Source of the DNA: Trichobilharzia szidati
Taxonomy: Eukaryota; Platyhelminthes; Trematoda; Strigeidida; Schistosomatidae
Assembly (NCBI GenBank): GCA_944472155.2
Contig: OX235273.1
Location: 36,367,204-36,431,203, forward strand
Direction of reading: 5' to 3'
DNA: 64,000 nt
A program made the position numbers and the translations under genes. Shown one piece after another: positions 949 to 63,173 of the stretch; position 1 is the stretch's first letter; each line of letters starts with the position of its first letter. The notes below the pieces were generated by a model, which saw nothing but the letters and a program-made list of their open reading frames with translations, did no database searches and had not been told where the DNA came from.

Positions 949-1018
949 CTGTCAGTAGAGATAAACTCAGAAGGAGGAGGAACGCAGGGATTTCTAATGA
1001 TAGGAAAGCGAAAGTCAT
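949..1018 (-). CDS. MEG copy Z, exon 1 (signal peptide); gene runs off the window
   Basis: Exon 1 of a fourth copy of the micro-exon gene, reading leftwards. The 70 bases are identical to exon 1 of copy A (start MTFAFLSLEIP, then a Leu/Ser-rich hydrophobic core) and end ACAG before a GTAAGC donor, leaving phase 1. A TATAAATA box lies at 1048-1055. The next recognisable exon is the 24-nt micro-exon at about 413-436 on the same strand, between a TTCTGAAG acceptor and a GTGAGT donor. It encodes A-V-P-P-H-R-Y-Q where A, B and C have A-D-R-P-P-R-H-Q. Later exons would lie left of base 1. Signal-peptide function is inferred from the N-terminal Leu-rich run; family membership comes from identity with copy A. 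Confidence 0.75.
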
Positions 1019-3359: not shown

Positions 3360-6300
3360 ATGACTTTCGCTTTCCTATCATTAGAAATCCCTGCGTTCCT
3401 CCTCCTTCTGAGTTTATCTCTACTGACAGGTAAGCGCTACTGAATTTCTCTCTGTACATATTGCAATAATATTTTGAAACAAACGAATTTAAAGTAGAGA
3501 ACTCACATCTGACAACTGCTTTTATAGTATTTGATGATCAGTGATTTGTGTAAATGTTTGAAGCACTGCATTCGATCAGATCTATCAGACGTCGATATGA
3601 ATATCATTTTCTGATGAACGTGAGGTACGGAATGACAAACCAATCTAGTCATTTATCTGACACATACCGATAACACGAACTCGCATGCATTTCATGCATT
3701 TCTGTTGCACAAATTGTGTGCATTGATGTTTTCAGTTTCATGGTTACAAACCCATATTGAGTCGCATCAATTTGAAACTGTTACTCAGTGCAGATTGAGT
3801 GCACAAGATAAGCATTTAGGTGGTCTCCCTACGAAATTATAGATGAATGATTCTCCCTCACTGTCGATCAAGTGATTCGTGAGATTAAATGTGGTCACTT
3901 GCGCATATTATGAATTAATTAATTATTTCTCTTTTCCTGAAGCTGATCGGCCGCCTCGGCATCAAAGTGAGTCATTACACATTGAACAGTAATTTAAGCA
4001 GTCATGTTGCCATTAGTCTGCTATTATCCAATTGTTTCTGACTTGTAAATTCTTTTGAAATGTGAAGTTGCCTGTCGAATATCCAGTCAACTCAACTAAG
4101 GAATCAATCAATGTTCGGGAATTCTACGATGTCAAACTTTCGAATATTGCTCTCCACAATTAGTAGTTTGTCGGCTAATTATAGGTTATTATCGAATAGT
4201 CAGTCTGGTGGTGGGACATCATGTAAATCCTGCAAAGAAATGCAACAAGTGAAACAACTTCATCTAATCCAGCAGGATAATAGCGTTGAACTTTGAGAAT
4301 CTGCACTGTGTGGATATGTAGAAATCGACTTGATCATTCGATATTCCCTAACGGTGAGAATCTAAGTTCTCAATGTACTCCCATTGTGTAGGCAATTATG
4401 GTGCGAAGCTAGTCATTTTCTATCTGTGACAGTTAACCTCTGAATGAGGCTTGAGTATCAGGATTCTCGAGTGGGACGACAATTTCTTCTTGTGGAGTGA
4501 GTGGGAGGATATTTCAAGCGGTATCGTTCCGTATTCTCGAGTGGAATATTCTCTTCACTACGCTACTCATCGAACATGTCAACGAGTGTTATTCATTCTC
4601 ATAAAAAGGGAAACATGCTGGCACACATATTCACTACGTCGTTCACACTCGAATCACTCTTGAACAAGTCACAGCATTCAACCAAGCTTAATCGAATGAG
4701 TTAACACTTAGTCTTGTTGTTTTGAAGTGGGGCCTAATCTTGCTCGAACTGTACACACTTTACAACAAGCCATCAGCAGTTCTCAAAGTAAGCAAATTCT
4801 TTTCAATATACTTCAATATTCCATGCTTTTGCCTAACATTTGATGAAGTAGTAAAGCCTTTGTTCATTGAATGCATTTTCATTTTCATTTGTGGATTGAT
4901 TTATCGTATTCTCTCTGAATTTGCGATTATCTGTGTTGGAGGTGGTTGGTGGAAGCAGATGCAGCGTGTAATACTGGAACCCTTTGTGAATGTAGACGAA
5001 TTCAGTGTGACTGATGAACAGATTTGACAGTTGTCATCATTCCTATAGACATCATCAATTCATTTGTGGAACATTTTCGATTGTTTTACAGGACAAATCA
5101 TAGACTTGAATAACAGGAAAGCAATTGCGGAAGAACAAGCGGATACATTGGAAGGTGCTTTTACAAATCTGCTTTTAATTACCACATGTATTTTGGATGT
5201 TATTTCTTGATTTGTTGTGTCGGTGATGCTTCGATTCAATAGTAGTATGCGTGTGGTAATTGAACTCTGTGGTGGTTGTGGTGTTGGTGGTGGTAGTAGT
5301 GGTATATAGTTGAAAATTAATGTGGTTGTTGGACATATGACAGAGTGAAACAGGTTCATTCACTGGATGATGTTTCAAGGGTGTTTATTATTCACAATGG
5401 TATCACTTGCAACTACAAGATTGCTAAGCACCACACTTAGCCTCCTCTTTCTTCTCTGTCTTATTCTTTCAACAGACGTGGAGTGTTCACAGCCTCCAGT
5501 TATGCTTCCTACTAAGGATGACAGTGGTGTGATGTAGATTTACAACCAGTGATTCGATGACAGTCACAATATAAATAATAACAGTTTCACAATGTTTCGT
5601 ACAAACCTGTTGTTTTTGGAAGTGAATGTGTGGCTTCGCATTGCGAGTCGCTGGAGGATGGTAGATACTTTCTACATGAACATGCAGTAAATAATTGTCG
5701 AATGCTGTCCAAATGCGTGTAAACACGAATATCTAGGTATCAGTGGAGACAGAGTACTGGTGATTCCATTCTACCGTTTGTTTATTCATGGTCTTTTATT
5801 TCGATATTTGAGAAGCGATCAAATTGACCACACTGTCTTCAATGTCTTGCAATCATGATTTATATCGCACGAGGCAACAGACTATTTGTCTCCTTCCCAC
5901 TTCAGACCGCTTGGAAACACAGGCTAACGAAACAGGCAGAAGTATCACTAATTGTAAGTCAACAAATTTAATCAATATTGAGAAATAATACTTCTTTTAG
6001 TTGTGATTTGTCTATACAATACTTCTGAAAACCACTACCAACCGGAAATTTACAGAAGTACGTGAAATGTTTGTTGTTCATGTTCAGACTGCAAACAAAG
6101 TGACTAGACTATTGAAATCCCTCGTTAAATTAACTCTGAATTAACGCCACTACTGAATATCACACAGACATGTGAAGGCTGACGTTCAGTTGTTTAAACA
6201 ATATGTCTGAATAATACCACCTATTCAATTTGAGTATCTCATGGTTAGGAATTCTGCACCTTTCATTATCCCGAATTTTGTCTATCTTGCATTCATTGTG

Positions 6301-9258
6301 TATTCATTTGTTTGACAGGCATTGCAAGGACCATCAGCGCTGTACAGCAGTCATATGGTTAGTGCACCTTCGTAATTCATAGCACACTCTGTTTGATGTT
6401 GTTCGCTTTGCATTTCAATCGGTGAGTTGTTGGGGCTGATTTCCGAAAGAGATTCAGTTGAGTCACTCTACTGCTATTGAAAGATGAGCGTACGTGTGGC
6501 AGACTGTTTTCAGCTGCTTGAGATGCTCATCTTCTCATATTTCACTATCAGTCACTTGGATACAACGAGTATAAGAGAGAGAGTATAAGCGTATTTGGCA
6601 TTTTATCCAATCTCTGCGCAATGATACGTAATGGCGAAAGATGTTGACAAAACAGACGCAGTTGATTGATTCACTGAAAAGCCTGAACTACGGGCCACTA
6701 ATATTCGCCAGGTGGGAAGACAAACATCAAATTATCTATTTCATTTGTTCCAGGTGATTTTCAGTTTACTGGTCGATAAATATTTTGTTCACTTTGCATT
6801 TTATCCAGGGACTTTCTTCTCCTTATCTCAGAGTAGAACTCTCTGGACGGAATCGTTAATCCATGGATCTGAATGTAAGAAGCATTGATATTATTGGTTG
6901 AGTAGGTCAGCTTCACTTCTGCTTACGGCTGCTCATTGTTATGACTCAGTCAAACATCGCTGTGATCGAATGCACCATATTAAACTGGTGACTTTGTTAT
7001 CGTTGATAGTGAAAGCGTGTGACTGAAAGACAGATTTGTTTAACTGTTGGATGTTCGAGTGAATTTGTGAGTCACTGGACAACAGATGACATCCAACAGT
7101 GATTTTGTATACGTGTGTTGTCATTTTGTTTATGAGATTGTCAAAAACAAAACAGGCGATTAGTCTCCGATGCTACGCACTACAATCGTTTTGTGAATGA
7201 GAGTGTCATTTTGAATAGGTGATGCCTCGTCACTCACAATGTTGAGAGGTGAATTGAGAGCAACTGAGATCTAGTCAGTAACAGTGTGCACATCACGTAA
7301 TCCGAAGACTGGCAGTTCACTGACTCATGGTCAATCCCTATGAAGATTCAAAACTTCAAGTATCTCTCTCTCTCAATCTGAAGAGCCGTCACTCATTGCT
7401 TACTCACCATGAATCGATTTCAGTGTATCAGCAGGTTGGCGAAATTCACAACCTACACGTGCACATATTTCCGATGCACATTAGAATAAACGAGTAATAT
7501 GTTCGTATCTGTTGACGTCTGTGTATTTCAGGCGGACCACGCCGTAAGTCAAATCACAGAATACTGGTGATCAGTAATACTAAACACACCATGTTCATTG
7601 TATCCGACGAAATACTGTCAACACTATCCTTTCTTCTTGAATAGGTACCGGACGAGTGCCGGATTTCAGTGGATGTGATAGTCTTCTGTCGGTTAATCGC
7701 ACTGAAGGTAATTAGAAACATGTCATTGCTTTGTGGAAGATTGTTCCATCAGTTTTATTCCCGGTGTTTCGCAGACAGATGTATATCAAATAATTTGACT
7801 GAATAACAAATGATAGTGACTGTCATATTACGTGTTTCGTAAACGACGAAGCTACTCTCTACAAAGAGAAAGTCAACTTCCTTGTAAATACCCTGATGAT
7901 TCTTCTTCCAGAGCACTTTCCGCTGACTGTATTTCTAGCTTGCATTACCAATAATTTTAGAACCTTATTATTATTGTTCCATTGAGTTTCAAATGGGACG
8001 TAGTGCTTCAGCAGTGTCTTCATTTTCTCCAGCATATTTGTTGACCAGTAGGTTCCTGGTTGGTTGGTTGGTTGGTTTGCTGCTAGAGTTTCTTGTCGCT
8101 AATTTTCTCTGGCCATTTCAGTGATCTTCAATATGTAGGTAATGAAGTCAGCTGTTGAAAATGTCCACCACCTACTGGAAAATCTGTGACATAAATATGT
8201 AAATATGTGTTCACCCTGCTGACGGCGGTTCAATTGAGAAGTGAACACTGCTTCGCTGAATATTGTCGTCTTCCGAATTAGCACTGCCTCCTTGCGTCCT
8301 CATCTCTCCACAAATCATCATGCCTATCCATGATATGTGCTTGCACTTTGCTTTCCTTTCCAGAAATAAATGAATTGACTCGACGGGTAACACATGTCAG
8401 TTATTGGAAACACCTGTGGGTGATGGCTTATGGTAAGCTAAAAAATTTGGAGTCGAATACTTTGCAAGGCACTTTCAACAGTCTAGTATGTCGTAAATGT
8501 TGAGTCGCAGGTGAGATAGCATCTCACAATCAGATTTGTCACGTACCTTGCAGATACTACTCTCGATGATTAGAAACGATAGACTTACAACATTTTATCT
8601 GTTTTCTCACATGCGCCTGTCCAAGTTTACATATTAATTAAGCATTTTCTGACGACAGACTTCATCTTCTCTTTATAGAAACCAGATCAATTTATGAGAA
8701 TGTTTTGACGAATTTCAGGGTGAGTTTATGTAGCAGAAGCAATCCACACAATCCCTATGACTCAACTCACTTACCGTGTATTATCCATCGCCACATCTCA
8801 TGTCGAATTGAATAATGTCGTGTTGGTGTTTGTAGCCAAGTAGACGAGATGTTCACTTCTAATGAATAACTAAACATTGTGTAGTGAAAATGTCAGCAAT
8901 CAGAATAATAATTAGATGGAAAGCTTTGGCTTCTTTCGGACTGATTGTTGTGGCAGTTATTTCGTGTGATGCTCTTAACTGCGGTGCTACATACACGTCT
9001 TGCCAACGTTTGAATGCATGAAGGATATGATCCAGCACATCAACTCGAGTACAATTGGTTTGAGTTATTCAGTCATTTGAGATTGATAATGTCGAAAATT
9101 AGTGGTTAATTCACTTTATGAAACGTTCTCCATTCCTTCAGCATCGTCCTCGATTCTATTGAAATTGCTCATTCAGTCATTCATTCATGATTTTTGCAAT
9201 CTTTCTTCTCTTCTTGCAGGATAGATACCGAGCGCTGACAGGACATTACCCACAGTGA
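3360..9258 (+). CDS. Micro-exon gene (MEG-like), secreted variable protein, copy A
   Basis: Thirteen coding exons: 3360-3429, 3943-3966, 4728-4787, 5092-5154, 5476-5526, 5906-5953, 6319-6357, 6809-6874, 7532-7543, 7645-7707, 8364-8432, 8679-8719, 9220-9258. Lengths are 70, 24, 60, 63, 51, 48, 39, 66, 12, 63, 69, 41 and 39 nt, total 645 (214 residues plus TGA). Exons 2-11 are multiples of three entering and leaving in phase 1, the hallmark of schistosome micro-exon genes. Residues 1-23 are a signal peptide. Residues 33-72 (to E-E-Q-A-D-T-L-E) look alpha-helical or coiled-coil. N-glycosylation sequons are N-E-T and N-R-T; the mature part has four Cys. The last exon ends T-G-H-Y-P-Q. AATAAA follows at 9403-9408. 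Best-supported splice sites flank exons 5906-5953 and 8364-8432. Further micro-exons between 3966 and 4728 are possible (e.g. 9 nt at 4392-4400). The subfamily is not assigned. Confidence 0.82.
4451..4507 (+). pseudogene. Intronic ORF, broken in copy A
   Basis: In C (50065-50295) and B (44519-44749, minus) a 76-codon ATG frame (start MRLEYQDSRVGRQ) lies in the intron before the 60-nt exon. In A the nineteenth codon is TGA. It is Arg/Phe-rich with no recognised domain. It could be intronic chance or an unrecognised exon, since CAG precedes GATTCTCGAG. Confidence 0.2.
5397..5526 (+). other. Possible alternative first exon with its own signal peptide (copy A)
   Basis: An ATG at 5397 opens the same frame as the 51-nt exon 5476-5526. 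It encodes MVSLATTRLL followed by a Leu/Phe-rich core and D-V-E-C-S, a good signal peptide. The same T-rich bases form the polypyrimidine tract and CAG acceptor of the internal exon. The arrangement is intact in B (43795-43666) and C (51020-51149). Either reading stays in frame with the downstream exons. Confidence 0.45.
8889..9021 (+). other. Short secreted-peptide-like ORF inside the last MEG intron (copy A)
   Basis: The frame starts MSAIRIIIRWK, has a hydrophobic stretch A-S-F-G-L-I-V-V-A-V and then C-D-A-L-N-C-G; about 43 codons. Copy B keeps it with a few substitutions (about 40615-40485, minus). Copy C has lost the start region by deletion near 54560. It lies between MEG exons 12 and 13. 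Its function is unknown and it may be fortuitous. Confidence 0.25.
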
Positions 9259-15539: not shown

Positions 15540-16859
15540 TTAGTGGCATTCTTGAATGACCCCACGACGAAGGCTTTTTGGTATCACTGTAACCCAGCTA
15601 CCATCACTGTCTTTCCAATTGAGAACGCCGATGGCGTATAGTTTGAGTCTATGTTTTTGCTGCAGTAGCATCTTTAACTCTCTATTCTCTGCTGCCATTT
15701 CAATTTCTTTCCCTTCACCTATCATCTGAATGACTGTCTTAAGAGTAGGATCCGACTTCTGGTGGCGAACAAGTTGTAAGGGATCTTGCTCCAAAGCGTT
15801 TACTGCATACGCTACCTCTGGTAGTTCAGTCTCATTATCTGATCTCGACAAATAGTCAGCTATTACATTTTCTTTTCCTGGAATATGTCCAATCGTGAAG
15901 TCATACTCTTGTAGGCGTAACATCCATCGTGATAACTTCCCTCGTGGATCCCGTGCTGTTTTCAACCACTGAAGAGGTTTGTGGTCGGTCTCAATGTGGA
16001 ATCGGCGGCCGATCAGATATGGTCTCCATTTTTATAGTGCCCATACAATGGCTAGACACTCCTTTTCCACCGTAGAATACTTCTGTTCTGCAAGTGTCAA
16101 CACACGGCTAGCGTATTCAACAACCCCATCCGTTTGTCTTAAAACAGCACCTATACCATAATCACTGGCGTCTGTCGAAACTGTGAACTGCTTCCCCGGC
16201 GCTGGCAGTTTCAACGTCATCTGTTGACCATCTAACAGCTCTTTAATTCGCTCAAACGTTTGCTGTGCCTCTTCCGTCCACATGAATTTCGCGTCACTCA
16301 GCAACGTATATAGCGGTTTTGCTATCTCATTGAAATTTTTGACAAATCGGCTGTAGTAAGCCGCTCTTCCCAAAATCTGTCTCAGCTTTCGCTTTGAATT
16401 TGGCACTTCGCTGGTTTTGACCCTCAGGATTTTCTCCGGCAATAGCCATATTTCTCCATTTCCCACTTTGTAACCCAGGAGGACAACCGTGTTTTTAGCT
16501 ATTTGGCACTTGTTCTTATTAATCCGCAGTCCAAAGTCATCAATTCTCTTTAAGATAGCTTCGATGTGGTCTATATGGTCGCTTTCCGTCTCACTGTACA
16601 CCACCAAGTCATCTCCATATACTTTTACGTTCTTCAGACCCTTCAGTAATAAGGTCAGTAATCTTCTGAATGTAAATGGAGCACCTACCAATCCAAATGG
16701 CATTCGTTTAAGCTGGTATTGTTTGTGCCCAACTGTGAAAGCTGTTTTACTTCGATCACTTTCTGCTATTGGAATCTGCCAGTAACCCGATCTTAGGTCG
16801 AACACGGTGAATAACTTGGCTTTATGAAGGCGATCAAGGGTTTCTGTTACGGTAGGCAT
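15540..16859 (-). pseudogene. Gypsy reverse transcriptase and RNase H (copy A), broken
   Basis: The main piece 16032-16859 has the RT motifs F-D-L-R-S-G-Y-W-Q-I, M-P-F-G-L-V-G-A-P and Y-G-D-D. The third of these usually reads Y/F-[VILM]-D-D, so Gly is unusual. It continues into RNase H with S-T-D-A-S-D-Y-G-I-G-A-V-L. A stop after A-I-V-W-A-L separates the second piece (15540-15965), with the rest of RNase H and the H-I-P-G-K-E-N-V-I-A-D linker. The same motifs are in copy B (33581-34627) without that break. Confidence 0.88.
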
Positions 16860-16920
16860 TGCACACTGTGAGGCTATTCAGCTGTTTGAAATCGACACAA
16901 AATCTCTATTTCCCGTTAGC

Positions 16921-21628: not shown

Positions 21629-22276
21629 TTACAACTTCATTGTTGAACACCTCATCGTCATTCGAATGATCTCGTCATCCACTGCAGCGAAATCACCATC
21701 GCCATCATCATCACAAATCTTCTTACTCATTCTCTTCCTCAGTGTCTCTCTCACCTTCTCCACCAAAGTCATCATCGTGCACCGATCATACGTGTAGGCA
21801 TTGCCACATCCACTCACACGATGCATGTGATCCAGCATCATTCGATGAACGTACACCTGAGGATGCAGGTGATAATGTGTGATATGATGTTCGGTGGCGA
21901 GATCACCCCTCTCTCGTGACATCACACACATCTCAGTCAACTTCTCCTCCAACATCCTCTCCACATTCACAGCCATCTCCACAATCCTCGTCATTTCATC
22001 ACGTGTGTTCCTCGGATGAGTGTTGGTGACGAGTGGTCGGATCTCTGTGACAATGTATTTGCCACCACGAGTTGTCTGCCAGTCAATCAGATTCTGACCA
22101 ATGGCTCGATGACGACGAGCACAGAGCTGGAAGAATGTGTGGAATCCTGGCATGTGGAGATCGTGTGTGTTGCACTGAGCAGCCAACAAGTCATATGTGA
22201 TTGTCGCTGACTGTGTCACACTGATGATCTCATTCAGTTTATTCTCACACTCCTTCGGATATTTCGAGTTCATCAT
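21629..22276 (-). CDS. Divergent ferritin-like protein, intron-free (copy A)
   Basis: 215 codons from the ATG pair at 22276. An upstream in-frame ATG (22381) lies only about 10 bases from the TATA box, so it is probably in or before the leader. The order of features follows ferritin: Y-P-K-E-C-E-N-K-L near the start, F-H-T-F-F, then W-Q-T-T-R-G-G-K-Y-I-V, V-E-R-M-L-E-E-K-L, T-H-Y-H-L-H-P-Q-V and M-H-R-V-S-G-C-G-N-A-Y. The helix-B ferroxidase block E-E-R-E-H reads R-H-R-A-I, and the helix-A Glu is replaced by Thr in my alignment; Glu107 and Gln141 equivalents remain. A 50-residue acidic/basic tail (D-D-D-G-D-G-D) follows the normal ferritin end. Catalytic iron oxidation is probably lost. The homology call is by eye and would benefit from a profile search. 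Confidence 0.65.
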   Translation of the reverse strand: MMNSKYPKECENKLNEIISVTQSATITYDLLAAQCNTHDLHMPGFHTFFQLCARRHRAIGQNLIDWQTTRGGKYIVTEIRPLVTNTHPRNTRDEMTRIVEMAVNVERMLEEKLTEMCVMSRERGDLATEHHITHYHLHPQVYVHRMMLDHMHRVSGCGNAYTYDRCTMMTLVEKVRETLRKRMSKKICDDDGDGDFAAVDDEIIRMTMRCSTMKL

Positions 22277-22390
22277 GACTGAGTGGATGACTGGCTGACT
22301 GGCTGACTTCTTGGCTGACTGACTGGTTGACTCGTTGATTGATTGATTGACTGGCAGGCAGTCTGTTGACTTATCAGACATGCACTACGC

Positions 22391-27319: not shown

Positions 27320-30300
27320 TGTATTATTGTTCCCTTGGGTTCCTAGTGGAACATAGGGCTTCAACTGCACTTCCCGACTTGCTTCTGTTTTCTGCTGTAC
27401 TTTTCACTTGCGTCCATGTTATTCCATACTGTTTCATCTCCTCCTCACACGATCTCCTCCATGTCACCCTTGGACGTCCCACTCGCCGCTTCCCTTTCGG
27501 GTTCCACTCGAGCACTGTCCTGACGCGCAATGTCACCCAACGGCCTCCTCAGCGAGTGTCCAATCCATCTCCACTTTCTCCTGCATATTTGTTGGGCGAC
27601 TGGTTCCTGTTTCGTTTGTTCCCATAGCTTCTTGTTGGTGATTCTTTCCGGCCATCTAATCTTCAGTATGGAGCGAAGATAGTTGTTGATAAAGGTCTGC
27701 AACCTGTTGAAAATATTCTTGGTGACCCGCCAAGTTTCTGATCCGTATAGAAGAACTGACTGACTTGACGTTTGTATTGAAAATCCGAATTTTGTTGTTG
27801 ATGCTGAGTTGAGTGACGAAGATTTCCAGATTGGTTTCAGGTTGATGAATTTATTTCTCGTTTTCCCGATTCTCGATTTTACATCCTCGTCCGTTCCTCC
27901 TTAAGTTGACACAATGCTCCCTAGATAAGTGACAGAAGTAACCTCTTTCAAATCCATCCCGTTGATGGTGATTGGCACTGGATGTTGCTGCTGTTGTTGT
28001 TGTTGGTTGGTTATTTTCATAACCTCCGTCTTGTTTATGTTCACCTGGAGTCCTGTCTTTGCTGCTTCTTCGACCAGTTTGTTGGTTTTCGCTTGTAAGT
28101 CTTCGATTTTGTGTGACATTAAACATAAATCATCCACGCGCGAAATCCAGATCTTCTAGATTCTTCACATCGGTCCAGGATATCCCTGTGTTCTCGTTTC
28201 CCACTGTCTGACGCATAATCCAGTCCACCACAATTAGGAATATCATTGGTGATAATAAGCACCCTTGTCTGACTCCTGTGTTTACTCCAAACTCTTCGCT
28301 GAGTTTTCGATTGTGGATCACTAGACATGTGCCGTTGTCGTACAGCTGCTGAATAAGGTTGATGAATATTTCCGTTACGCCATATCAGTCGAGTAGTTTC
28401 CAAATTACTTCGCGGTCAACGCTGTCGAAGGCCTTCTCAAAGTCTATAAAGTCGAGGTAGAGATTCGATTGCCATTCCACGCTTTGTTCGATGATAATGT
28501 GTAGAGTTGCAATTTGGTCAGAACATGATTTGCCTTTCCTGAATCCAGCTTGTTCTGGTCGGAGTTCTGTATCCAGTGCGTCCTTTATTCTCTTCAGGAT
28601 GATGCGAATCAAGATTTTACTTGGCGTGGACAGGAGCATGATTCCTCGCCAGTTCTTGCAGAGTCCTAGGTCGCCCTTCTTTGGTAGTTTCACTAGGTAA
28701 CCTTTTCTCCAGTCAGTAGGCACCTTTCTTTCTTTCCAGATCTTTCGCAATAATGGAGTCAGCATATCTGCTGTCATCTCTGGGTCCGCTTTCAGTGCTT
28801 CCAGGGGTATTCCATCTGGTCCAGCTGCTTTTCCAGCTTTCAGAAGTTTGATTGCATTCATGACTTCAGTCTTCGTTGGAGGATTGGTGTCAGCTTGCAG
28901 TTGTGTACGTGCTGTTGTTGGTATTTCTGGACGGGTTGCAGGTGGTGGTCGGTTCAAGAGTCCTTCGAAGTGGTCCGCCCACTGTTTAATCTGTCTTTCT
29001 TCCTGGGTAATTGGGTTCCCTTGGCTGTCTTTTATAGGTTTCACTTGTGTTGATCTCTTCCCGGATAGAGACTTGGTTATCTGATATAGTGTCCTCAGGT
29101 CCCTTTTGCCTGATGCCTTCTCAGCTTCAGTGGCCAGATTGTCGTAGAATTGTCTTTTGTCCTTCCTAGCTCTCTTCTTCACTTCTTTGTCCAGTGCTGT
29201 GTAAGTTGGGCTCAGCGTCTCTTTCTCTTGTCCATCTTTGCATTGAAACATTTTCTCTTTCACCATTCTCCTCTCCTCTATTAGCTTCCAAGTGTCTGTT
29301 GAGAGCCATTCCTTGTCTTGTCTCTTCTTTCTTCCTAAAACGGTTGAACACGTTTCGTTGAAAATTGCCTTCAGAGAGTTCCAATGGTCTTCCACGGATG
29401 ATTCCTCAGTGGTGCCACGTAGTGTTTCCTGCTTTGCTCTGACAGTTGCAGTGAAAATGTCCTGTGTGATTGTGTCCTTCAGTTTGTGAGTGTTGAACTT
29501 GCATTGTGGCCTATCCTCGGCTATCCTCGAGGCTTTCAGCTTCACCTTGAAAGTCCCTTGTACCAGATAGTGGTCTGAACCCACATCTGCTCCTCTCCTC
29601 GATCTTGTGTCCAGTAGGCTCCGTCTCCACTTCCTTGAGATTGAAATGAAGTCTATCTGGTTTTTGGTGTGTCCATCTGGTGAAATCCATGTTGCCTTGT
29701 GTATATTTTTGTGTTTTAACACACTGCCACCAATCACCAAATCATTGAAGGCGCAGAAGTCTGAGAAGAGTTCACCATTTTCGTTCATTTCACCGAGGGC
29801 CTCACGACCCATGGTGAGTTCTCTTCCTGTATTGTCTCCTCCCAGTTTCGCATTCATGTCACCCATCAGGATTTTGATATCGCTCTTTGGGACGTTGTCC
29901 ATTACTGTTTGTAGTTGACTGTAGAAATCCTCCTTCTTCTCTTGTTCTGAGACGTTTGTAGGCGCCTAGCATTTATTGATTGTAACCTTCCTTCCTGTTG
30001 AGTTGAACCTGGCTGTCATTATCCTGGAGGAGATTGGTTCCTACTGCATGAGAGCTTTAGCCGCTGTTGGTGACATCATGATGGCTACTCCCTAGATGTG
30101 CTCGTGATTGTCCTCTGGGTGACCGGAGTAGATTATTGTCTCTCCAGTTGGTAGTTGGCTCCTTCCACCTACTTTCCATCTGCTCCCGCAGATTCCCAAC
30201 ACTTCTACTTCATATCTCCTCATTTTTGAGGCTACCTGAACAGCCTTTCCAGTTTCGTACATTGTACGAATATTCGACGTCCCCATCCTTATTTTTGTTT

Positions 30301-33171: not shown

Positions 33172-33580
33172 CTGTGGTGATAATCCGATATAAGTAGTAT
33201 ATGAGAAACAAATTCAGAAAAGTGACAATATGTTTGGCACACTGCGACGAGTTCCGGTTCACCTTGAAGAAGAAGTTAACCGACAAGTCAGAGAAATGTT
33301 AAACGACGGAATAATCGGAAAAGCCGACAGCCTGTACAGTTCGCCAATCCTTTTGGTGAAGTGAGCTAGCGGGAAATATAGATTTTGTGTCGATTTCAAA
33401 CAGCTGAATAGCCTCACAGTGTGCAATGCCTACCGTAACAGAAACCCTTGATCGCCTTCATAAAGCCAAGTTATTCACCGTGTTCGACCTAAGATCGGGT
33501 TACTGGCAGATCCCAATAGCAGAAAGTGATCGAAGTAAAACAGCTTTCACAGTTGGCACAAACAATACCAGTTTAAACGA

Positions 33581-40225: not shown

Positions 40226-43200
40226 TCACTCTGGGTAATGTCCTGTCAGCGCTTGGTATCCAGCCTTCAAGAAGAGAAGAAAGATTGCAAAAATCATGAA
40301 TGAATGAGCAATTTCAATAGAATCGAGGACGATACTGAACGAATGGAGAACGTCTCATTAAGTGAATTAAGCACTAAATTTCGACATTTTCAATCTCAAA
40401 TGACTGAATTACTCAAACCAACTGTACTCAAGTTGATGTGCTGGATCATATCCTTCATGCATTCAAACGTGGGCCAGACGTGTATGTAGCACCGCAGTTA
40501 AGAGCATCACACGAAATAACTGCCACAACAATCAGTTCGAAAGAAGCCAAAGCTTTCCATCTAATTAGTATACTGATTGCTGACATTTTCACTACACAAT
40601 GTTTAGTTATTCATTAGAAGTGAACATCTCGTCTACTTGGCTCCAAACACCAACACGACATTACTCAATAGAACATGAGATGTGGCGATGGATAATACAC
40701 GGTGAGTGGACGGAATTTTGTCATACGGATTGTGTGAATTGCTTCTACTACATAAACTCACCCTGTAATTCGTCAAAACATTCTCATAAATTGATCTGGT
40801 TTCTATAAAGAGAAGATGAAGTCTAAAGATGAAGATGAAAATACGCGACAAATCTGAGTGTGAGATGCTATTTCACGTGTGACTCAACGTTTACGACATA
40901 CTTGACAGTTGAAAGTGCCTTGCAAATTATCCGACACAAACGTATTTAGCTTACCATAAGCTATCACCCACAGGTGTTTCAAAAAACCGTAATGTGTTGC
41001 CCAATGAGTGAATACATTTATTTCTGGAAAGGAAAGCAAAGTGCAAGAATATATCATGGATAGACAATTAGCGACAATAAAATCTAACGAGCTATCAACC
41101 AGTAACCTACTGATCAACAAATATGCTGGAGAAAATAGAGAGACCACTGAAGCCTTATTTCATACTAGAAACCCAAGAAAACAATAATATTAATATTATA
41201 ATATGAGTAGTAATGCAATGCTAGAAATATAGTCAACGTAAGGTGTTCTCGAAAAGAATCATCAGGGTATTTACAAGGAAGTTGACTTTCTATTTGTAGA
41301 GAGTAGCTTCGTCGTTTACGGAACACGTAATATGACAGTCACTGTCATCTGTCATTCAGTCAAATAATTTGATATACATCTGTCCGCGAAACACCGCGGA
41401 TAAAACTGATGGAACAATCTCCCCCAAAGCAATGACATGTTTCGAATTACCTTGAGTGCGATTAACCGACAGAAGACTATCACATCCACTGAAATCCGGC
41501 ACTCGTCCGATACCTATTCAAGAAGAAAGGATAGTGTTGACAGTATTTCGTCGGATACAATGAACATGGTGTGTTTAGTATTACTGATCACCAGTATTCT
41601 GTGATTTGACTTACGGCTTGGTCCGGCTGAAATGCACAGACGTCAACACATACAAACATATTACTCGTTTATTCTAATGTGCATCGGAAATATGTGCACG
41701 TGTAGGCTGTGAATTTCGCCAACCTGCTGATACAGTGAAATTGATTCTTGGTGAGTAAGCAATGAGTGACGGGTCTTCAGATTGAGAGAGAGAGATACTT
41801 GAAGTTTCGAATCTTCATAGGGATTGACCATGAGTCAGTGAACTGCCAGTCTTCGGATTACGCGATGTGCACACTGTTACTCACTGGATCTCAGTTGCTC
41901 TCAATTCACCTCTGACCACTCTGAGCGACTGGGCATCACTTATTCAAAATGACGCTCTCATTCACAAAACGATTGTAGTGCGTAGCATCGGAGACTAATC
42001 ACCAGTTTTGTTTTTGACAATCTCATAAACAAACCGAGTCCCAACACACTGACACTGGATCACAAAATGACAACACACGTATACAAAGTCACTGTTGGAT
42101 GTCATCTGTTGTCCAGTGACTCACAAATTCACTCGAACATCTAACAGTTGAACAAATTTGTCTTTCAGTCACACGCTTTCACTATCAACGATAACTAAGT
42201 CAACAGTTTAATATGGTGGATTCGATCACAGGGATGTTTGACTGAGTCAGAACAATGAGGAACCTTTAGCAGAAGTGAAGCTGACCTACTCAACCAATAA
42301 TATCAATGCTTCTTACATTCAGATCCATGGATTAACGATTCCCTCCAGAGAGTTCTACTCTGAGATAAGTAGAAGAAAGTCCCTGGATAAAATGCAAAGA
42401 GAACAGAATATTTATCGACCAGTAAATTGAAAATCACCTGGAACAAATGAAATACTTAATTTGATGTTTGTCTTCCCACCTGGCAAATATTAGTGGCCTG
42501 TAGTTCAGGCTTTTCAGTGAATCAATCAACTGGGTCTGTTTTGTCGACATCTTTCGCCATTAAGTATCATTGCGCAGAGATTGGATAAAATGCTAGATAC
42601 GACTATACTCTTTCTCTTATACTGGTTGTATCCAAGTGACTTGTAGTGAAATATGAGAAGATGAGCATCTCAAGCAGCTGGAAACAGTCTGCCACACGTA
42701 CGCTCATTTTTCAATAGCAGTAGAGTGACTCAACTGAATCTCTTTCGAAAATAAGCGCCGACAACTCTCCGATTGAAATGCAAAGCGAACAACATCAAAC
42801 AGAGTGTGCTATGAATTAGGAAGGTGCACTAACCATATGACTGCTGTACAGCTCTGATGGTGCTTGAAATGCCTGTCAAACAAATGAATACACAATAAAT
42901 GCAAGATAGACAAATATCGGGATAATGAAAGGTGCAGAATTCCTAACCATGAGATACTCAAATTGAATAGGTGGTATTATTCAGACATGGTGTTTAAACA
43001 ACTGAACGTCAGCCTTCACACGTCTGTGTGATATTCAGTAGTGGCGTTAATTCAGAGCTTATTTAACGAGGGATTTCAATAGTCCAGTCACTTTGTTTGC
43101 AGTCTGAACATGAACAACAAACATTTCACGTACTTCTGTAAATTTCCGGTTGGTAGTGGTTTCCAGAAGTATTGTATAGACAATTCACAACTAAAAGAAC

Positions 43201-45833
43201 GATTATTTCTCAATATTGATTAAATTTGTTGACTTACAATTAGTGATACTTCTGCCTGTTTCGTTAGCCTGTGTTTCCAAGCGGTCTGAAGTGGGAAGGA
43301 GACAAGTAGTCTGTTGCCTCGTGCGATACAAGTCATGATTGCAAGACATTGAAGACAGTGTGGTCAATATTGCTCGCTTCTCAAATGTCGAAATAAAAGA
43401 CCATGAATAAACAAACGGTAGAATGGAATCAACAGTACTCTGTCTCCACTGATACCTAGATACTGGTGTTTACACGCATTTGGACAGCATTCGACAATTA
43501 TTTACTGCATGTTCATGTACAAAGTATCTAACATCCTCCAGCGACTCGCAATGCAAAGCCACCCATTCACTTCAAAAAACAACAGGTTTGTACGAAACAT
43601 TGTGAAACTGTTATTAGTTATATTGTGACTGTCATCGAATCACTGGTTGTAAATCTACATCACACCACTGTCATCCTTAGTAGGAAGCATAACTAGAGGC
43701 TGTGAACACTCCACGTCTGTTGAAAGATTAAGACAGAGAAGAAAGAGGAGGCTAAGTGTGGTGCTTAGCAATCTTGTAGTTGCAAGTGATACCATTGTGA
43801 ACAATAAACCTCCCTCGAAACATCATCCAGTGAATGAACCTGTTTCACTCTGTCATATGTCCAACAACCACATTAATTTTCAACTATATACCACTTCTAC
43901 CACCACCAACACCACAACCACCACAGAGTTCAATTACCACACGCATACTACTATTGAGTCGAAGCATCACCGACACAACACATTAACAAATAACATACAA
44001 AATACATGTGGTAAGTAAAGGCAGATTTGTAAAAGCACCTTCCAATGTATCCGCTTGTTCTTCCGCAATTGCTTTCCTGTTATTCAAGTCTATGATTTGT
44101 CCTGTAAAACAATCGAAAATGTTCCACAAATGAATTGATGATGTCTATAGGAATGATGACAACTGTCAAATCTGTTCATCAGTCACACTGAATTCGTCTA
44201 CATTCACAAAGGGTTCCAGTATCACACGCTGCATATGCTTCCACCAACCACCTCCAACGCGGATAATCGCAAATTCAGAGAGAATACGATAAATCAATCC
44301 ACAAATGAAAATGAAAATGCATTCAATGAACAAAGGCTTTACTACTTCATCAAATGTCAGGTGAATGCATGGAATATTGAAGTATATTGAAAAGAATTTG
44401 CTTACTTTCAGAAGTGCTGATGTCACGTTGTAAAGTGTTTACAGTTCGAGCAAGACGAGGCCATACTTCAAAACAAGAAGGCTAAGCGTTAACTCATTCG
44501 ATTAAGCTTGGTTGAATGTTACGACTTGTTCAAGAGTGATTCAAGAGTGAATGACGTAGTGAATATGTGTGCAAGCATGTTTCCCATTTTATGAGAATGA
44601 ATAAAACTGGTTGATATGTTCAATGAGTAGCGTATTGAAGAGAATATTCCATTCGAGAATACGGAACGATACCGCTTGAAATATCCTCTCACTCGCTCCA
44701 CAAGAAGAAATTGTCGTCCTACTCGAGAATCCTGATACTCCAGCCTCATTCAGAGGTTAACAGTCATAGATAGAAACTGCCTAGCTTCACACCATATTTG
44801 CCTACACAATGGGAATACATTGAGAATTTAGCTTCTCACCGTTAGGAAATATGGAATGATCAAGTCGATTTCTACATATCCACAGAGTGCAGATTCTCAA
44901 AGTTCAACGCTATCATCCTGCTGGATTAGATGAAGTTGTTTCACTTGATGCATTTCTTTGCAGGATTTACATGATGTCCCACCACCAGACTGACTATTCG
45001 ATAATAACCTAGAATAAGCTGACAAACTACTAAGTGTGGAGAGCAATATTCGAAAGTTTGACATTGTAGAATTCCCGAACATTCATTGATTCCTGAGTTG
45101 AGTTGACTGGATATTCGACAGGCAACTTCACATTTCAAAAGAATTTACAAGTCAGAAACAAGTGGATAATAGCAGACTAATGGCAACATGACTGCTCAAA
45201 TTACTGTTCAATGTGTAATGACTCACTTTGATGCCGAGGCGGCCGATCAGCTTCAGGAAAAGAGAAATAATTAATTAATTGATTATATGCGCAGGTGAGC
45301 ACATTCAATCTCACGAATCACTTGATCGACAGTGAGGGAGATTCATTCATCTATTATTTCGTAGGGAGACCACCTAAATGCTTATCTTGTGCACTCAATC
45401 TGCACTGAGTAGCAGTTTCAAATTGATGCGACTCAATATGGGTTTGTAACCATGAAACTGAAATCATCAATGCACACAATTTGTGCAACAGAAATGCATG
45501 AAATGCATGCGAGTTCGTGTTATCGGTATGTGTCAGATAAATGACTAAATTGGCTTGTCATTCCGTACCTCACGTTCATCAGAAAATGATATTCATATCG
45601 ACGTCTGATAGATCTGATCGAATGCGGCGGTTCATACATTTACACAAATCACTGATCATCAAATACTATAAAAGCAGTTGTCAGATGTGAGTTCTCTACT
45701 TTTAATTCGTTTGTTTCAAAGTATTAGTGCAATATGTACAGAGCGAAATTAAGTGACGCTTACCTGTCAGTAGAGATAAACTCAGGAGAAGGAGGGACGC
45801 AGGGATTTCTAATGATAGGAAAGCGAAAGCCAT
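40226..45833 (-). CDS. Micro-exon gene (MEG-like), secreted variable protein, copy B
   Basis: Same 13-exon model as copy A, read leftwards: 45764-45833, 45227-45250, 44406-44465, 44039-44101, 43666-43716, 43238-43285, 42834-42872, 42317-42382, 41615-41626, 41451-41513, 40955-41023, 40762-40802, 40226-40264. Total 645 nt, open throughout, 214 residues. The signal peptide starts MAFAFLSLEIPAS, shared with C and not with A. The first nine exons match C exactly wherever C is intact, except for a change in the 66-nt exon. The 69-nt exon is unlike both others (T-H-W-A-T-H-Y-G-F-L-K). The last exon starts A-G-Y-Q-A. The Cys at the 66/12-nt junction of A is Ser here. Confidence 0.82.
43666..43795 (-). 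other. Possible alternative first exon with signal peptide (copy B)
   Basis: In-frame ATG extension of the 51-nt exon, start MVSLATTRLL, equivalent to 5397-5526 in A. Open and in phase. Confidence 0.45.
44519..44749 (-). CDS. Intronic 76-codon ORF, copy B
   Basis: Start MRLEYQDSRVGRQ; identical in copy C (50065-50295); stopped at codon 19 in A. It is inside a MEG intron, same strand. It ends N-K-S-stop. No domain recognised, and it could be untranslated. Confidence 0.2.
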   Translation of the reverse strand: MRLEYQDSRVGRQFLLVERVRGYFKRYRSVFSNGIFSSIRYSLNISTSFIHSHKMGNMLAHIFTTSFTLESLLNKS

Positions 45834-48980: not shown

Positions 48981-51900
48981 ATGGCTTTCGCTTTCCTATC
49001 ATTAGAAATCCCTGCGTCCCTCCTTCTCCTGAGTTTATCTCTACTGACAGGTAAGCGTCACTTAATTTCGCTCTGTACATATTGCACTAATACTTTGAAA
49101 CAAACGAATTAAAAGTAGAGAACTCACATCTGACAACTGCTTTTATAGTATTTGATGATCAGTGATTTGTGTAAATGTATGAACCGCCGCATTCGATCAG
49201 ATCTATCAGACGTCGATATGAATATCATTTTCTGATGAACGTGAGGTACGGAATGACAAGCCAATTTAGTCATTTATCTGACACATACCGATAACACGAA
49301 CTCGCATGCATTTCATGCATTTCTGTTGCACAAATTGTGTGCATTGATGATTTCAGTTTCATGGTTACAAACCCATATTGAGTCGCATCAATTTGAAACT
49401 GCTACTCAGTGCAGATTGAGTGCACAAGATAAGCATTTAGGTGGTCTCCCTACGAAATAATAGATGAATGAATCTCCCTCACTGTCGATCAAGTGATTCG
49501 TGAGATTAAATGTGGTCACTTGCGCATATTATCAATTAATTGATTATTTCTCTTTTCCTGAAGCTGATCGGCCGCCTCGGCATCAAAGTGAGTCATTACA
49601 CATTGAACAGTAATTTGAGCAGTCATGTTGCCATTAGTCTGCTATTATCCAATTGTTTCTGACTTGTAAATTCTTTTGAAATGTGAAGTTGCCTGTCGAA
49701 TATCCAGTCAACTCAACTCAGGAATCAATCAATTTTCGGGAATTCTACAATGTCAAACTTTCGAATATTGCTCTCCACAATTAGTAGTTTGTCAGCTTAT
49801 TCTAGGTTATTATCGAATAGTCAGTCTGGTGGTGGGACATCATGTAAATCCTGCAAAGAAATGCATCAAGTGAAACAACTTCATCTAATCCAGCAGGATG
49901 ATAGCGTTGAACTTTGAGAATCTGCACTCTGTGGATATGTAGAAATCGACTTGATCATTCCATATTTCCTAACGGTGAGAAGCTAAATTCTCAATGTATT
50001 CCCATTGTGTAGGCAAATATGGTGTGAAGCTAGGCAGTTTCTATCTATGACTGTTAACCTCTGAATGAGGCTGGAGTATCAGGATTCTCGAGTAGGACGA
50101 CAATTTCTTCTTGTGGAGCGAGTGAGAGGATATTTCAAGCGGTATCGTTCCGTATTCTCGAATGGAATATTCTCTTCAATACGCTACTCATTGAACATAT
50201 CAACCAGTTTTATTCATTCTCATAAAATGGGAAACATGCTTGCACACATATTCACTACGTCATTCACTCTTGAATCACTCTTGAACAAGTCGTAACATTC
50301 AACCAAGCTTAATCGAATGAGTTAACGCTTAGCCTTCTTGTTTTGAAGTATGGCCTCGTCTTGCTCGAACTGTAAACACTTTACAACGTGACATCAGCAC
50401 TTCTGAAAGTAAGCAAATTCTTTTCAATATACTTCAATATTCCATGCATTCACCTGACATTTGATGAAGTAGTAAAGCCTTTGTTCATTGAATGCATTTT
50501 CATTTTCATTTGTGGATTGATTTATCGTATTCTCTCTGAATTTGCGATTATCCGCGTTGGAGGTGGTTGGTGGAAGCATATGCAGCGTGTGATACTGGAA
50601 CCCTTTGTGAATGTAGACGAATTCAGTGTGACTGATGAACAGATTTGACAGTTGTCATCATTCCTATAGACATCATCAATTCATTTGTGGAACATTTTCG
50701 ATTGTTTTACAGGACAAATCATAGACTTGAATAACAGGAAAGCAATTGCGGAAGAACAAGCGGATACATTGGAAGGTGCTTTTACAAATCTGCCTTTACT
50801 TACCACATGTATTTTGTATGTTATTTGTTAATGTGCTGTGTCGGTGATGCTTCGACTCAATAGTAGTATGCGTGTGGTAATTGAACTCTGTGGTGGTTGT
50901 GGTGTTGGTGGTGGTAGAAGTGGTATATAGTTGAAAATTAATGTGGTTGTTGGACATATGACAGAGTGAAACAGGTTCATTCACTGGATGATTTTTCAAA
51001 GGGAGGTTTATTGTTCACAATGGTATCACTTGCAACTACAAGATTGCTAAGCACCACACTTAGCCTCCTCTTTCTTCTCTGTCTTAATCTTTCAACAGAC
51101 GTGGAGTGTTCACAGCCTCTAGTTATGCTTCCTACTAAGGATGACAGTGGTGTGATGTAGATTTACAACCAGTGATTCGATGACAGTCACAATATAACTA
51201 ATAACAGTTTCACAATGTTTCGTACAAACCTGTTGTTTTTTGAAGTGAATGGGTGGCTTTGCATTGCGAGTCGCTGGAGGATGTTAGATACTTTGTACAT
51301 GAACATGCAGTAAATAATTGTCGAATGCTGTCCAAATGCGTGTAAACACCAGTATCTAGGTATCAGTGGAGACAGAGTACTGTTGATTCCATTCTACCGT
51401 TTGTTTATTCATGGTCTTTTATTTCGACATTTGAGAAGCGAGCAATATTGACCACACTGTCTTCAATGTCTTGCAATCATGACTTGTATCGCACGAGGCA
51501 ACAGACTATTTGTCTCCTTCCCACTTCAGACCGCTTGGAAACACAGGCTAACGAAACAGGCAGAAGTATCACTAATTGTAAGTCAACAAATTTAATCAAT
51601 ATTGAGAAATAATCGTTCTTTTAGTTGTGAATTGTCTATACAATACTTCTGAAAACCACTACCAACCGGAAATTTACAGAAGTACGTGAAATGTTTGTTG
51701 TTCATGTTCAGACTGCAAACAAAGTGACTGGACTATTGAAATCCCTCGTTAAATAAGCTCTGAATTAACGCCACTACTGAATATCACACAGACGTGTGAA
51801 GGCTGACGTTCAGTTGTTTAAACACCATGTCTGAATAATACCACCTATTCAATTTGAGTATCTCATGGTTAGGAATTCTGCACCTTTCATTATCCCGATA

Positions 51901-54899
51901 TTTGTCTATCTTGCATTTATTGTGTATTCATTTGTTTGACAGGCATTTCAAGCACCATCAGAGCTGTACAGCAGTCATATGGTTAGTGCACCTTCCTAAT
52001 TCATAGCACACTCTGTTTGATGTTGTTCGCTTTGCATTTCAATCGGAGAGTTGTCGGCGCTTATTTTCGAAAGAGATTCAGTTGAGTCACTCTACTGCTA
52101 TTGAAAGATGAGCGTACGTGTGGCAGACTTTTTTTAGCTGCTTGAGATGCTCATCTTCTCATATTTCACTACAAGTCACTTGGATACAACGAATATAAGA
52201 GAGAATGTATGAGCGTATCTGGCATTTTGTCCAATCTCTGTGCAATGATACGTAATGGCGAGAGATGTTGACAAAACAGACCCAGTTGATTGATTCACTG
52301 AAAAGCCTGAACTACAGGCCAGTAATATTTGCCAGGTGGGAAGACAAACATCAAATTATCTATTTCATTTGTTCCAGGTGATTTTCAATTTACTGGTCGA
52401 TAAATATTCTGTTCTCTTTGCATTTTATCCAAGGACTTTCTTCTATTTATCTCAGAGTAGAACTCTCTGGAGGGAATCGTTAATCCATGGATCTGAATGT
52501 AAGAAGCATTGATATTATTGGTTGAGTAGGTCAGCTTCACTTCTGCTTACGGCTGCTCATTGTTCTGACTCAGTCAAACATCCCAGTGATCGAATGCACC
52601 ATATTTAACTGGTAACTTAGTTATCGTTGATAGTGAAAGCGTGTGACTGAAAGACAGATTTGTTTAACTGTTAGATGTTCGAGTGAATTCATGAGTCACT
52701 GGACAACAGATGACATCCAACAGTGACTTTGTATACGTGTGTTGTCATTTTGTGATCCAGTGTCAGTGTGTTGGGACTCGGTTTGTTTATGAGATTGTCA
52801 AAAACAAAACAGGTGATTAGTCTCCGATGCTACGCACTACAATCGTTTTGTGAATGAGAGCGTCATTTTGAATAGGTGATGCCCAGTCGCTCAGAGTGTT
52901 CAGAGGTGAATTGAGATCAACTGAGATCCAGTCAGTAACAGTGTGCACATCGCGTAATCCGAAGACTGGCAGTTCACTGACTCATGGTCAATCCCTATGA
53001 AGATTCAAAACTTCAAGTATCTCTCTCTCTCAATCTGAAGACCCGTCACTCATTGATTACTCACCAAGAATCAATTTCACTGTATCAGCAGGTTGACGAA
53101 ATTCACAGCCTACACGTGCACATATTTCCGATGCACATTCTAATAAACGAGTAATATGTTTGTATGTGTTGACGTCTGTGCATTTCAGCCGGACCAAGCC
53201 GTAAGTCAAATCACAGAATCCTGGTGATCAGGAATACTAAACACACCATGTTCATTGTATCCGACGAAATACTGTCAACACTATCCTTTCTTCTTGAATA
53301 GGTACCGGACGAGTGCCGGATTTCAGTGGATGTGATAGTCTTCTGTCGGTCAATCGCACTCAAGGTAATTGGAAACATGTCATTGCTTTGTGGAAGATTG
53401 TTCCATCAGTTTTATCCGCGGTGTTTCGCAGACAGATGTATATCAAATTATTTGACTGAATAACAAATGATAGTGACTGTCATATTACGTGTTTCGTAAA
53501 CGACGAAGCTACTCTCTACAAAGAGAAAGTCAACTTCCTTGTAAATACCCTGATGATTCTTCCTCCAGAGCACTTTCCGCTGTCTATATTTCTGGCATTG
53601 CATTACCAATAATATTAGAACTTTAATATTATTGTTCTTTTGAGTTTTAAATGGGACGTAGTGCTTCAGCAGTGTCTTCATTTTCTCCAGCATATTTGTT
53701 GACCAGTGGGTTCCTGGTTGGTTGGTTGGTTGGTCGGTTTGTTGCTAGAGTTTCTTGTCGCTAATTGTCTCTGGCCATTTCAGTGATCTTCAATATGTAG
53801 GTAACGAAGTCAGCTGTTGAAAATGTCCACTACCTACTGTAAATTATGTGACATAAATATGTAAACATGTGTTCACCCTGCTGACGGCGGTTCAATTGAG
53901 AAGTGAACACCGCTTCGCTGAATATTGTCGTCTTCCGAATTAGCAATGCCTCCTTGCGTCCACATCTCTCCACAAATCATCATGCCTATCCATGATATGT
54001 GCTTGCACTTTGCTTTCCTTTCCAGAAATAAATGAATTGACTCGACGGATAACAAATAACAATTATTTGAGACACCTGTGGGTGATAGCTTATGGTAAGC
54101 TGAAAAATTTGGAGTCGAATATTTTGCAAGGCACTTTCAACAGTCTAGTATGTCGTAAACGTCGAGTCGCACGTGAGATAGCATCTCACACTCAGATTTG
54201 TCGCGTATTTTGCGGATACTAGTCTCGATGATTAGAAACGATGGACTTACAACATTTTATCTGTTTTCTCACATGTGCCTGTTCAAGTTTACATATTAAT
54301 TAAGCATTTTCTGACGACAGACTTCATCTTCTCTTTATAGAAACCAGATCAATTTATGAGAATGTTTTGATGAATTTAAGGGTGAGTTTATGTAGCAGAA
54401 GCAATCCACACAATCCTCATGACAATAGTCAGTCCACTCACTTACCGTGTATTATCCATCACCACATCTCATGTCGAATTGAATAATATCGTGTTGGTGT
54501 TTAGAGCCAAGTAGATGAGGTGTTCAGTTCAAATGAATAACTAAACATTGTGTAATGAAAATTTCACCTATCGGCTTCTTTCGAACTGATTGTTGTGGCA
54601 TTTAATTGAGTTGTGTGATGCTCTTAAGTGACGTGCTACATACACGTCTCGCCCACGTTTGAATGCATGAAGGATATGATCCAGCACATCAACTGGAGTA
54701 CAGTTGGTTTGAGTAATTCAGTCATTTGAGATTGAAAATGTCGAAAGTTAGTGGTTAATTCACTTTATGAAACGTTTTTCATTCCTTCAGTATCGTCCTC
54801 GACTCTATTGAAACTGCTCATTCATTCATGATTTTCGCAATCTTTCTTCTCTTCCTGAAGGATGGATACCACACACTGACAGGACATTACCCACAGTGA
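48981..54899 (+). CDS. Micro-exon gene (MEG-like), secreted variable protein, copy C
   Basis: Exons: 48981-49050, 49564-49587, 50349-50408, 50713-50775, 51099-51149, 51530-51577, 51943-51981, 53189-53200, 53302-53364, 54026-54094, 54341-54381, 54861-54899. The 66-nt exon (about 52433-52498) has a CCAGGG to CCAAGG change that moves the acceptor AG one base and would shift the frame. Skipping it keeps the frame and gives 579 nt, 192 residues. The signal peptide equals copy B. The 69-nt exon has T-R-R-I-T-N-N-N-Y-L-R. The last exon starts D-G-Y-H-T. AATAAA at 55044-55049. Confidence 0.78.
50065..50295 (+). CDS. Intronic 76-codon ORF, copy C
   Basis: Identical frame to 44519-44749 in B, from a true ATG, in the intron before the 60-nt exon. 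Basic and aromatic. No recognised function; possibly non-coding. Confidence 0.2.
   Translation: MRLEYQDSRVGRQFLLVERVRGYFKRYRSVFSNGIFSSIRYSLNISTSFIHSHKMGNMLAHIFTTSFTLESLLNKS
51020..51149 (+). other. Possible alternative first exon with signal peptide (copy C)
   Basis: Equivalent of 5397-5526, with L-N-L-S where A has L-I-L-S. In phase with the 51-nt exon. Unspliced, it stops at TAG after 46 codons. Confidence 0.45.
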
Positions 54900-62634: not shown

Positions 62635-63173
62635 CTATGCAAGGAATACGCTGATAGATTTGCTTACTCCGTGGATAAATATCGTGTAGGCATTGCCACA
62701 TCCACTCACACGATGCATGTGATCCAGCATCATTCGATGAACATACATCTGAGGATGCAGGTGATAATGTGTGATATGATGTTCGGTGGCGAGATCACCC
62801 CTCTCTCGTGACAACACACACATCTCAGTCAACTTCTCCTCCAACATCCTCTCCACATTCACAGCCATCTCCACAATCCTCGTCATTTCATCGCGTGTGT
62901 CCCTCGGATGAGTGTTGGTGACGAGTGGTCGGATCTCTGTGACAGTGTATTTGCCACCACGAGTTGTCTGCCAGTCAATCAGATTCTGACCAATGGCTCG
63001 ATGACGACGAGCACAGAGCTGGAAGAATGTGTGGAATCCTGGCATGTGGAGATCGTGTGCACTGAGTTGCACTGAGCAGCCAACAAGTCATATGTGATTG
63101 TCGCTGACTGTGTCACATTGATGATCTCATTCAGTTTATTCTCATACTCCTTCGGATATTTCGAGTTCATCAT
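62635..63173 (-). pseudogene. Ferritin-like gene, frameshifted copy C
   Basis: Starts at 63173 like copy A (M-M-N-S-K-Y-P-K-E). A five-base insertion after the A-A-Q-C-N codons (near 63060) shifts the frame; the rest continues in another frame (62635-63072, F-H-T-F-F to M-H-R-V-S-G-C-G). About 410 bases, including the A-type C-terminal tail, are deleted, so the end differs. TATA box at 63260-63267. Confidence 0.6.

Follow-up and report, generated by a model that had tools for sequence, protein, structure and literature searches.

The bicycle genes of aphids have many small phase-1 exons, and the VSG and var arrays of protozoan parasites are large antigen arrays with gene conversion. In the available part of one report, bicycle genes are described as a large, divergent family of putative effectors with a characteristic gene structure (PMC9168663). 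The available parts of three reports describe schistosome MEGs as lineage-restricted genes for predicted secreted proteins, with short symmetric exons, a clustered arrangement and high reported dN/dS (PMC4350168, PMC5825161, PMC10526429), and SmPoMuc of Schistosoma mansoni is presented, in the accessible part of its description, as a polymorphic mucin multigene family with mosaics formed by recombination and with splice variants (PMC2576457). The gene array reported here likewise has short symmetric exons, clustered copies and a product that is probably secreted; we analysed it starting from a window of 64,000 nucleotides in the 1.11-Gb genome of Trichobilharzia szidati (C3:36367204-36431203). 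No account of this array was found in the literature searched, which comprised titles and abstract openings and covered subscription journals thinly.

Results

Gene structure and predicted protein

The 69-nt exon to which the first-pass annotation had drawn attention was found at all three of the positions that it gave: 8364..8432 on the plus strand in copy A, where it is flanked by ..ctttccag and gtaagc, 40955..41023 in copy B and 54026..54094 (plus strand) in copy C; copy B lies on the minus strand, a point absent from that annotation. This exon is the eleventh (X11) of a predicted gene of 13 exons, whose 651-nt CDS encodes 216 residues plus a stop codon and is free of indels and internal stops in A, B (40226..45833, minus strand) and C (48981..54899, plus strand). 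Ten of the 11 internal exons are multiples of three, and X2-X11, all multiples of three, are read as phase 1.

In copy A (all plus strand), X1 (3360..3429, 70 nt) carries the start codon and a signal-peptide-like hydrophobic stretch, and X2 (3943..3966, 24 nt) and X3 (4728..4787, 60 nt) follow. The T. szidati protein P0007 and the T. regenti protein P0009 join X1 to X5 alike, X2 included, and start similarly, as judged by eye. When aligned back to the window, T. regenti proteins match X4 (5092..5154, 63 nt), X5 (5906..5953, 48 nt), X6 (6001..6057, 57 nt), X7 (6319..6357, 39 nt), X8 (6809..6874, 66 nt), X10 (7645..7707, 63 nt), X11 and X12 (8679..8719, 41 nt), and the alignment also takes in the 12-nt micro-exon X9 (7532..7543) and X13 (9220..9258, 39 nt), which ends in the stop codon. 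Protein relatives were first sought with a nine-exon model, and the T. regenti alignments then revealed further upstream exons; a hydrophobic ORF at 5397, considered as the first exon, was accordingly dropped, as was an ORF at 8890, which is disrupted by indels in C. The former (5397-5537, plus strand), between X4 and X5, is open over its first 43 codons in A, B and C, and none of the Trichobilharzia proteins recovered was seen to contain it; it may be an alternative first exon or a chance frame. A fourth copy, D, enters the window with X1 at 949..1018 (minus strand) and X2 at 435-412, its remainder lying to the left.

In word-limited protein searches all matches were Trichobilharzia proteins, none of which bore a family name, and no Schistosoma protein or named MEG appeared among them. 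Pfam assigned no family to the protein as given by the earlier nine-exon model, since revised, and Rfam returned nothing above threshold. AlphaFold models of the T. regenti relatives had a mean pLDDT of 42, too low for fold searches. By hydropathy, X1 encodes a hydrophobic stretch, and P0007 has a similar start; the protein is therefore probably secreted, as the first-pass annotation had suggested for the segment encoded by X11. Among 30 intact copies (see below), three N-glycosylation sequons and one cysteine are present in all 30, and another cysteine in 28.

Splicing may vary at two places in the gene. X8 is a candidate for skipping: T. regenti P0002 is without the corresponding stretch, and the AG acceptor is lost in both fully read copies with a C-type X11, becoming AA in C (before 52433) and AC in a second copy, L024. 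Beyond its donor (after 8719, plus strand), X12 continues as an open frame, which with X12 counted spans 44-55 codons in 39 of the 41 copies. T. regenti P0004 reads through this donor, and the read-through is possibly an alternative last exon.

Elsewhere in the window, ferritin-like ORFs (Pfam PF00210) occur at 21632-22384 and 62638-63087, both on the minus strand and in two repeated stretches, and reverse-transcriptase ORFs (Pfam RVT_1) at 16035-16877 and 28388-29965, also on the minus strand; the ORF at 33539-34627 (plus strand) resembles the first of these by eye.

Extent and state of the array

Joining the X11 places from several genome searches, each with its best 40 candidates, gave a lower bound of at least 86 places on contig C3, over 1.92 Mb. 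By our own pairing rule, 62 of the 86 belong to 31 head-to-head pairs with a spacing of 11.7-13.6 kb. Two A-like X11 places lie outside the C3 array, on contig C2 near 40.03 and 45.59 Mb.

We read 38 further gene copies, which with A, B and C make a 41-copy set; the set was drawn from the best 40 matches to A's exon region, so its X11 diversity is understated. The full 651 nt is present in 35 of the 41; of these, 30 are intact and five carry a stop. Of the six that were dropped, four are wholly or partly without 5' exons, another is frameshifted in X10, and the last, L018, lacks X2 alone. The only losses of splice dinucleotides listed among full-length copies are those of the X8 acceptors of C and L024. 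The 30 intact copies encode 28 different proteins.

Recurring exon types

X11 falls into types. The 86 places comprise 43 A-like, 20 B, 17 B-prime, five C and one unassigned, five of the A-like places and the unassigned one having been placed by identity alone. Among the matches listed, 19 places are identical to B's X11 (B counted) and one is at 99%, followed by a gap until 94% and 17 places at 90-94%; for C's X11, four are at 100% (C counted) and one is at 99%, the two copies at 99% being known by their identity and not by their letters. Copy D, fetched by position alone, has an X11 that equals B's letter for letter. Twelve of the 17 B-prime exons, chosen to span the identities and not randomly, were read directly, the other types being counted by identity; they centre on EINVFTQRVTYYGFLKHLWVIAY, and one of the 12 has a stop.

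X3 is also multi-type, less sharply than X11. At X3, A differs from B and C at ten of 60 bases (9.5 of them replacement changes), and the 40 listed identities to A's X3 include 12 at 100%, nine at 98%, one at 95%, three at 93% and 15 at 87-88%. An X3 at 95-98% of A's occurs with a B or B-prime X11 in four copies, so the types of the two exons combine. 'Hypervariable', the first-pass description of X11, does not suit an exon that recurs as types common to many copies and in which rare replacements are absent within the A type.

X11 in the three window copies

The by-eye counts of the first-pass annotation proved right. A and C differ at eight of 69 bases, all eight changing an amino acid, and A and B at 12 of 69 (11.5 replacement, 0.5 silent), altering ten residues; B and C differ at 13 of 69 (12.5 replacement, 0.5 silent). 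Between A and C, X11 is more diverged (11.6%) than both neighbouring introns (4.0% and 5.7%). The annotation had held that intron divergence equal to that of the exon would refute diversifying selection, and this is the situation for B, where the A-B divergence is 17.4% in X11 against 12.9% and 17.8% in the neighbouring introns. Among 69-nt windows in the introns of the gene, 3.6%, 4.0% and 2.9% reach the respective A-C, A-B and B-C differences (8, 12 and 13), and 16%, 4.7% and 5.7% of such windows do so across the whole unit. The level of divergence of X11 is by itself only moderately unusual.

In a codon model of the three copies, omega for X11 was at its upper bound with a likelihood ratio of 9.2, and in a parametric bootstrap at omega = 1 the observed ratio with omega > 1 was reached in 0.21% of 5334 simulations (P = 0.0021; 0.027 after multiplication by 13 exons). 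With the rate tied to local introns, omega was 2.3 (p = 0.0036). For X8-X10 and X12-X13, omega = 1 was not rejected in the three window copies. An apparent constraint on X2, X4 and X5 together (three copies, omega 0.01, p = 0.0024) is not claimed, because over 30 copies X4 has a piN/piS of 1.37 and X2 has five replacements and no silent variant.

Selection on X11 across the array

In the 38 copies of the A type, two replacement variants are common, each in 17 copies. The 100-nt flanks predict 10.2 rare replacements and 3.6 rare silent variants; none of the former was seen (P = 4e-5) and four of the latter, in one or two copies each. Silent variants keep to the intron rate and rare replacements are missing, so constraint on replacement acts within the A type. 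Between the A, B and C types, by contrast, there are 15.3 replacement to 0.7 silent differences. A McDonald-Kreitman-like Fisher test of this within/between contrast gave p = 0.009, or 0.001 with rare variants only and 0.017 with B-prime added on the within-type side.

Other comparisons weigh against this. The between-type ratio of 15 to 1 taken alone had P = 0.054. The 11 B-prime sequences without a stop show seven replacement to four silent differences internally, and the constraint of the A type is not seen there. A minimum spanning tree of 17 X11 haplotypes from 54 copies has 30 replacement to 10 silent changes, not above neutral, and its long edges 24 to 5 (p = 0.20). The diversifying selection put forward by the first-pass annotation keeps the replacement excess among A, B and C and loses it over the 17-haplotype tree. 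Taken by itself, X11 is no proof of diversifying selection; the best support is the within/between contrast, which comes from one well-sampled type.

Selection across the whole gene

In the 30 intact copies, piS (0.040) is close to the mean intron diversity of 0.0445 (0.022-0.068 by intron), so silent sites are a usable neutral yardstick. Against it, piN/piS was 2.77 for X3, 5.5 for X7, 6.7 for X9, 1.6 for X10, 2.9 for X11 and 3.4 for X13, with 1.37 for X4, 0.85 for X6, 0.67 for X5, 0.66 for X1, 0.55 for X8 and 0.23 for X12. Pooled without X11, the exons X3, X7, X9, X10 and X13 gave 2.70 (bootstrap P = 0.001) and the remaining exons 0.66, the pool having been picked after the per-exon values were seen and its linked variants not being independent. 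These five exons show an array-wide replacement excess at least as clearly as X11 does. For the whole CDS, piN/piS was 1.38 (bootstrap P = 0.06). The counts of distinct CDS variants (119 replacement to 44 silent) were as neutral, and those of common variants (36 to 8) gave P = 0.10.

Per site, singletons numbered 0.075 for replacement, 0.122 for silent and 0.129 for intron positions, whereas variants in at least five of the 30 copies numbered 0.077, 0.044 and 0.053, respectively (Fisher p = 2.6e-4). Under a block null, P was 5e-5 for the common-to-singleton ratio, most of this owing to a lack of singletons, and 0.04 for the number of common variants by itself. That replacement variants across the 30 copies are scarce as singletons and not at intermediate frequency supports the interpretation given in the earlier annotation.

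Mixing between copies

Linkage decays quickly along the gene, mean r2 being 0.33 below 50 bp, 0.15 at 50-150 bp and 0.09 beyond 2 kb, and all four gametes occur in 74-88% of site pairs more than 50 bp apart. Divergence is 2.0% between the arms of 13 pairs and 4.5% in 728 other pairings of copies, irrespective of how far apart the copies lie in the array. In ten of the 13 pairs the partner is the nearest copy; in the remaining three it ranks 3rd, 4th and 30th of 38. Over the first half of the unit, B and C are nearly identical, and after it they diverge. These patterns fit gene conversion that shuffles variants between copies and is apparently strongest within pairs; recent duplication of whole pairs would also produce the likeness of partners.

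Discussion

The locus is best explained, with a probability of about 0.6, as a large shuffled array of a probably secreted protein with multi-type exons, forming a repertoire at the host interface. The gene structure, established by comparison, the array, the recurring types, the shuffling and the contrasts between replacement and silent changes are shown here; secretion, expression, contact with the host and the selecting agent, including host-driven selection, are inferred. Under this explanation, X11, X3, X7, X9, X10 and X13 would exist as limited sets of protein-distinct versions, whose differences, among the A, B and C versions of X11, are almost all amino-acid changing. Gene conversion, apparently strongest between pair arms, would move these versions among copies, which would explain why almost all intact copies read encode different combinations (28 proteins in 30 copies), and new amino-acid changes would be removed within the best-sampled version, A. 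The array would then most likely supply functionally distinct forms at the host interface. Our confidence is slightly lowered, and that in the neutral alternative slightly raised, because B-prime shows no within-type constraint. The fuller version, in which the megabase head-to-head array is a library of exon types, each held constant by purifying selection, from which conversion makes a combinatorial, secreted, host-facing repertoire with a logic like that of protozoan antigen arrays, we put forward tentatively.

An account without diversifying selection is possible, although we doubt it: the X11 types would stem from old paralogous lineages, drifting apart neutrally or with constraint relaxed, and conversion would have spread them later, so that uniformity within a type would reflect recent spread and not constraint. 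The B type has this appearance, since 18 other copies show about 6.2% flank divergence from B (approximate, from rounded identities and leaving out one copy with a shorter match) yet a single difference in the exon where 77, silent sites among them, would be expected, as if the exon had spread recently. The introns adjoining B's X11 are equally diverged, the tree (30 to 10) has no excess, B-prime has a ratio of 7 to 4, and the arms of 11 full-length pairs show no clear excess, with 113 replacement to 34 silent differences where the intron rate predicts 104 and 40 (P = 0.12). The A type is harder to accommodate, because its silent variants match the intron rate and it has no rare replacements; the replacement spectrum departs from those of silent sites and introns, and the three-copy test gave P = 0.002.

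Alternatively, the types may bind different partners, in the parasite or in its snail host, and divide labour among themselves free of immune pressure from the final host. Stable recurring types and the A-type constraint suit specialized functions as well as antigenic types, but with exon types so shuffled that 30 intact copies encode 28 proteins, a repertoire is a better fit than fixed roles, and we consider this division somewhat unlikely.

An assembly artefact, in which haplotypes or misassembled repeats were taken for copies, is very improbable. The region is highly repetitive and comes from a single assembly of 907 contigs, but the 86 places are on a single 155-Mb contig, and copies that are not pair partners diverge by 4.5% on average, however far apart they lie. 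Still less credible is a dead or non-coding repeat array with frames open by chance: 11 of 41 copies are not full length (six, L018 for want of X2 alone) or have a stop (five), but 30 are intact over 651 nt and 13 exons, the X8 acceptors of C and L024 are the only splice losses listed among full-length copies, replacements are less frequent per site than silent changes among singletons, and matching proteins exist in two Trichobilharzia species.

If the repertoire explanation is true, the array is a built-in experiment on selection at the interface of fluke and host, with introns, silent sites and dozens of copies in one place. T. regenti, in which relatives of the protein were found, also causes cercarial dermatitis in people. 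The available part of one report counts 1,571 orphan transcripts in T. regenti, some highly transcribed, and the array could account for part of them (PMC4749378).

The strict definition of MEGs, as given in the accessible text of PMC5825161, places about 80% of the CDS in symmetric exons of 6-36 bp, whereas here 36 of 651 nt are in exons of 36 nt or less and the exons are mostly 39-70 nt; all 13, at 12-70 nt, lie within the broad range of 3-81 bp given in the available part of PMC10526429. The motif FLhhFX6Wp(K/H/R), described there as following the signal peptide, is present in none of the 30 intact copies. The largest family in the table of PMC4350168, the part of that source used here, has 22 members, in S. 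mansoni, compared with at least 86 X11 places in this array. The array is, like SmPoMuc, a recombining multigene family, but it has no mucin repeats, the six small tandem arrays in the window lying outside the exons of A, B and C. Bicycle genes are an insect family, and the likeness to them would lie in a divergent family and its gene structure. Compared with the VSG and var arrays, this one belongs to an animal parasite and has its types at the scale of exons; if the repertoire explanation holds, a metazoan parasite possesses a combinatorial protein library built from exon types and gene conversion.
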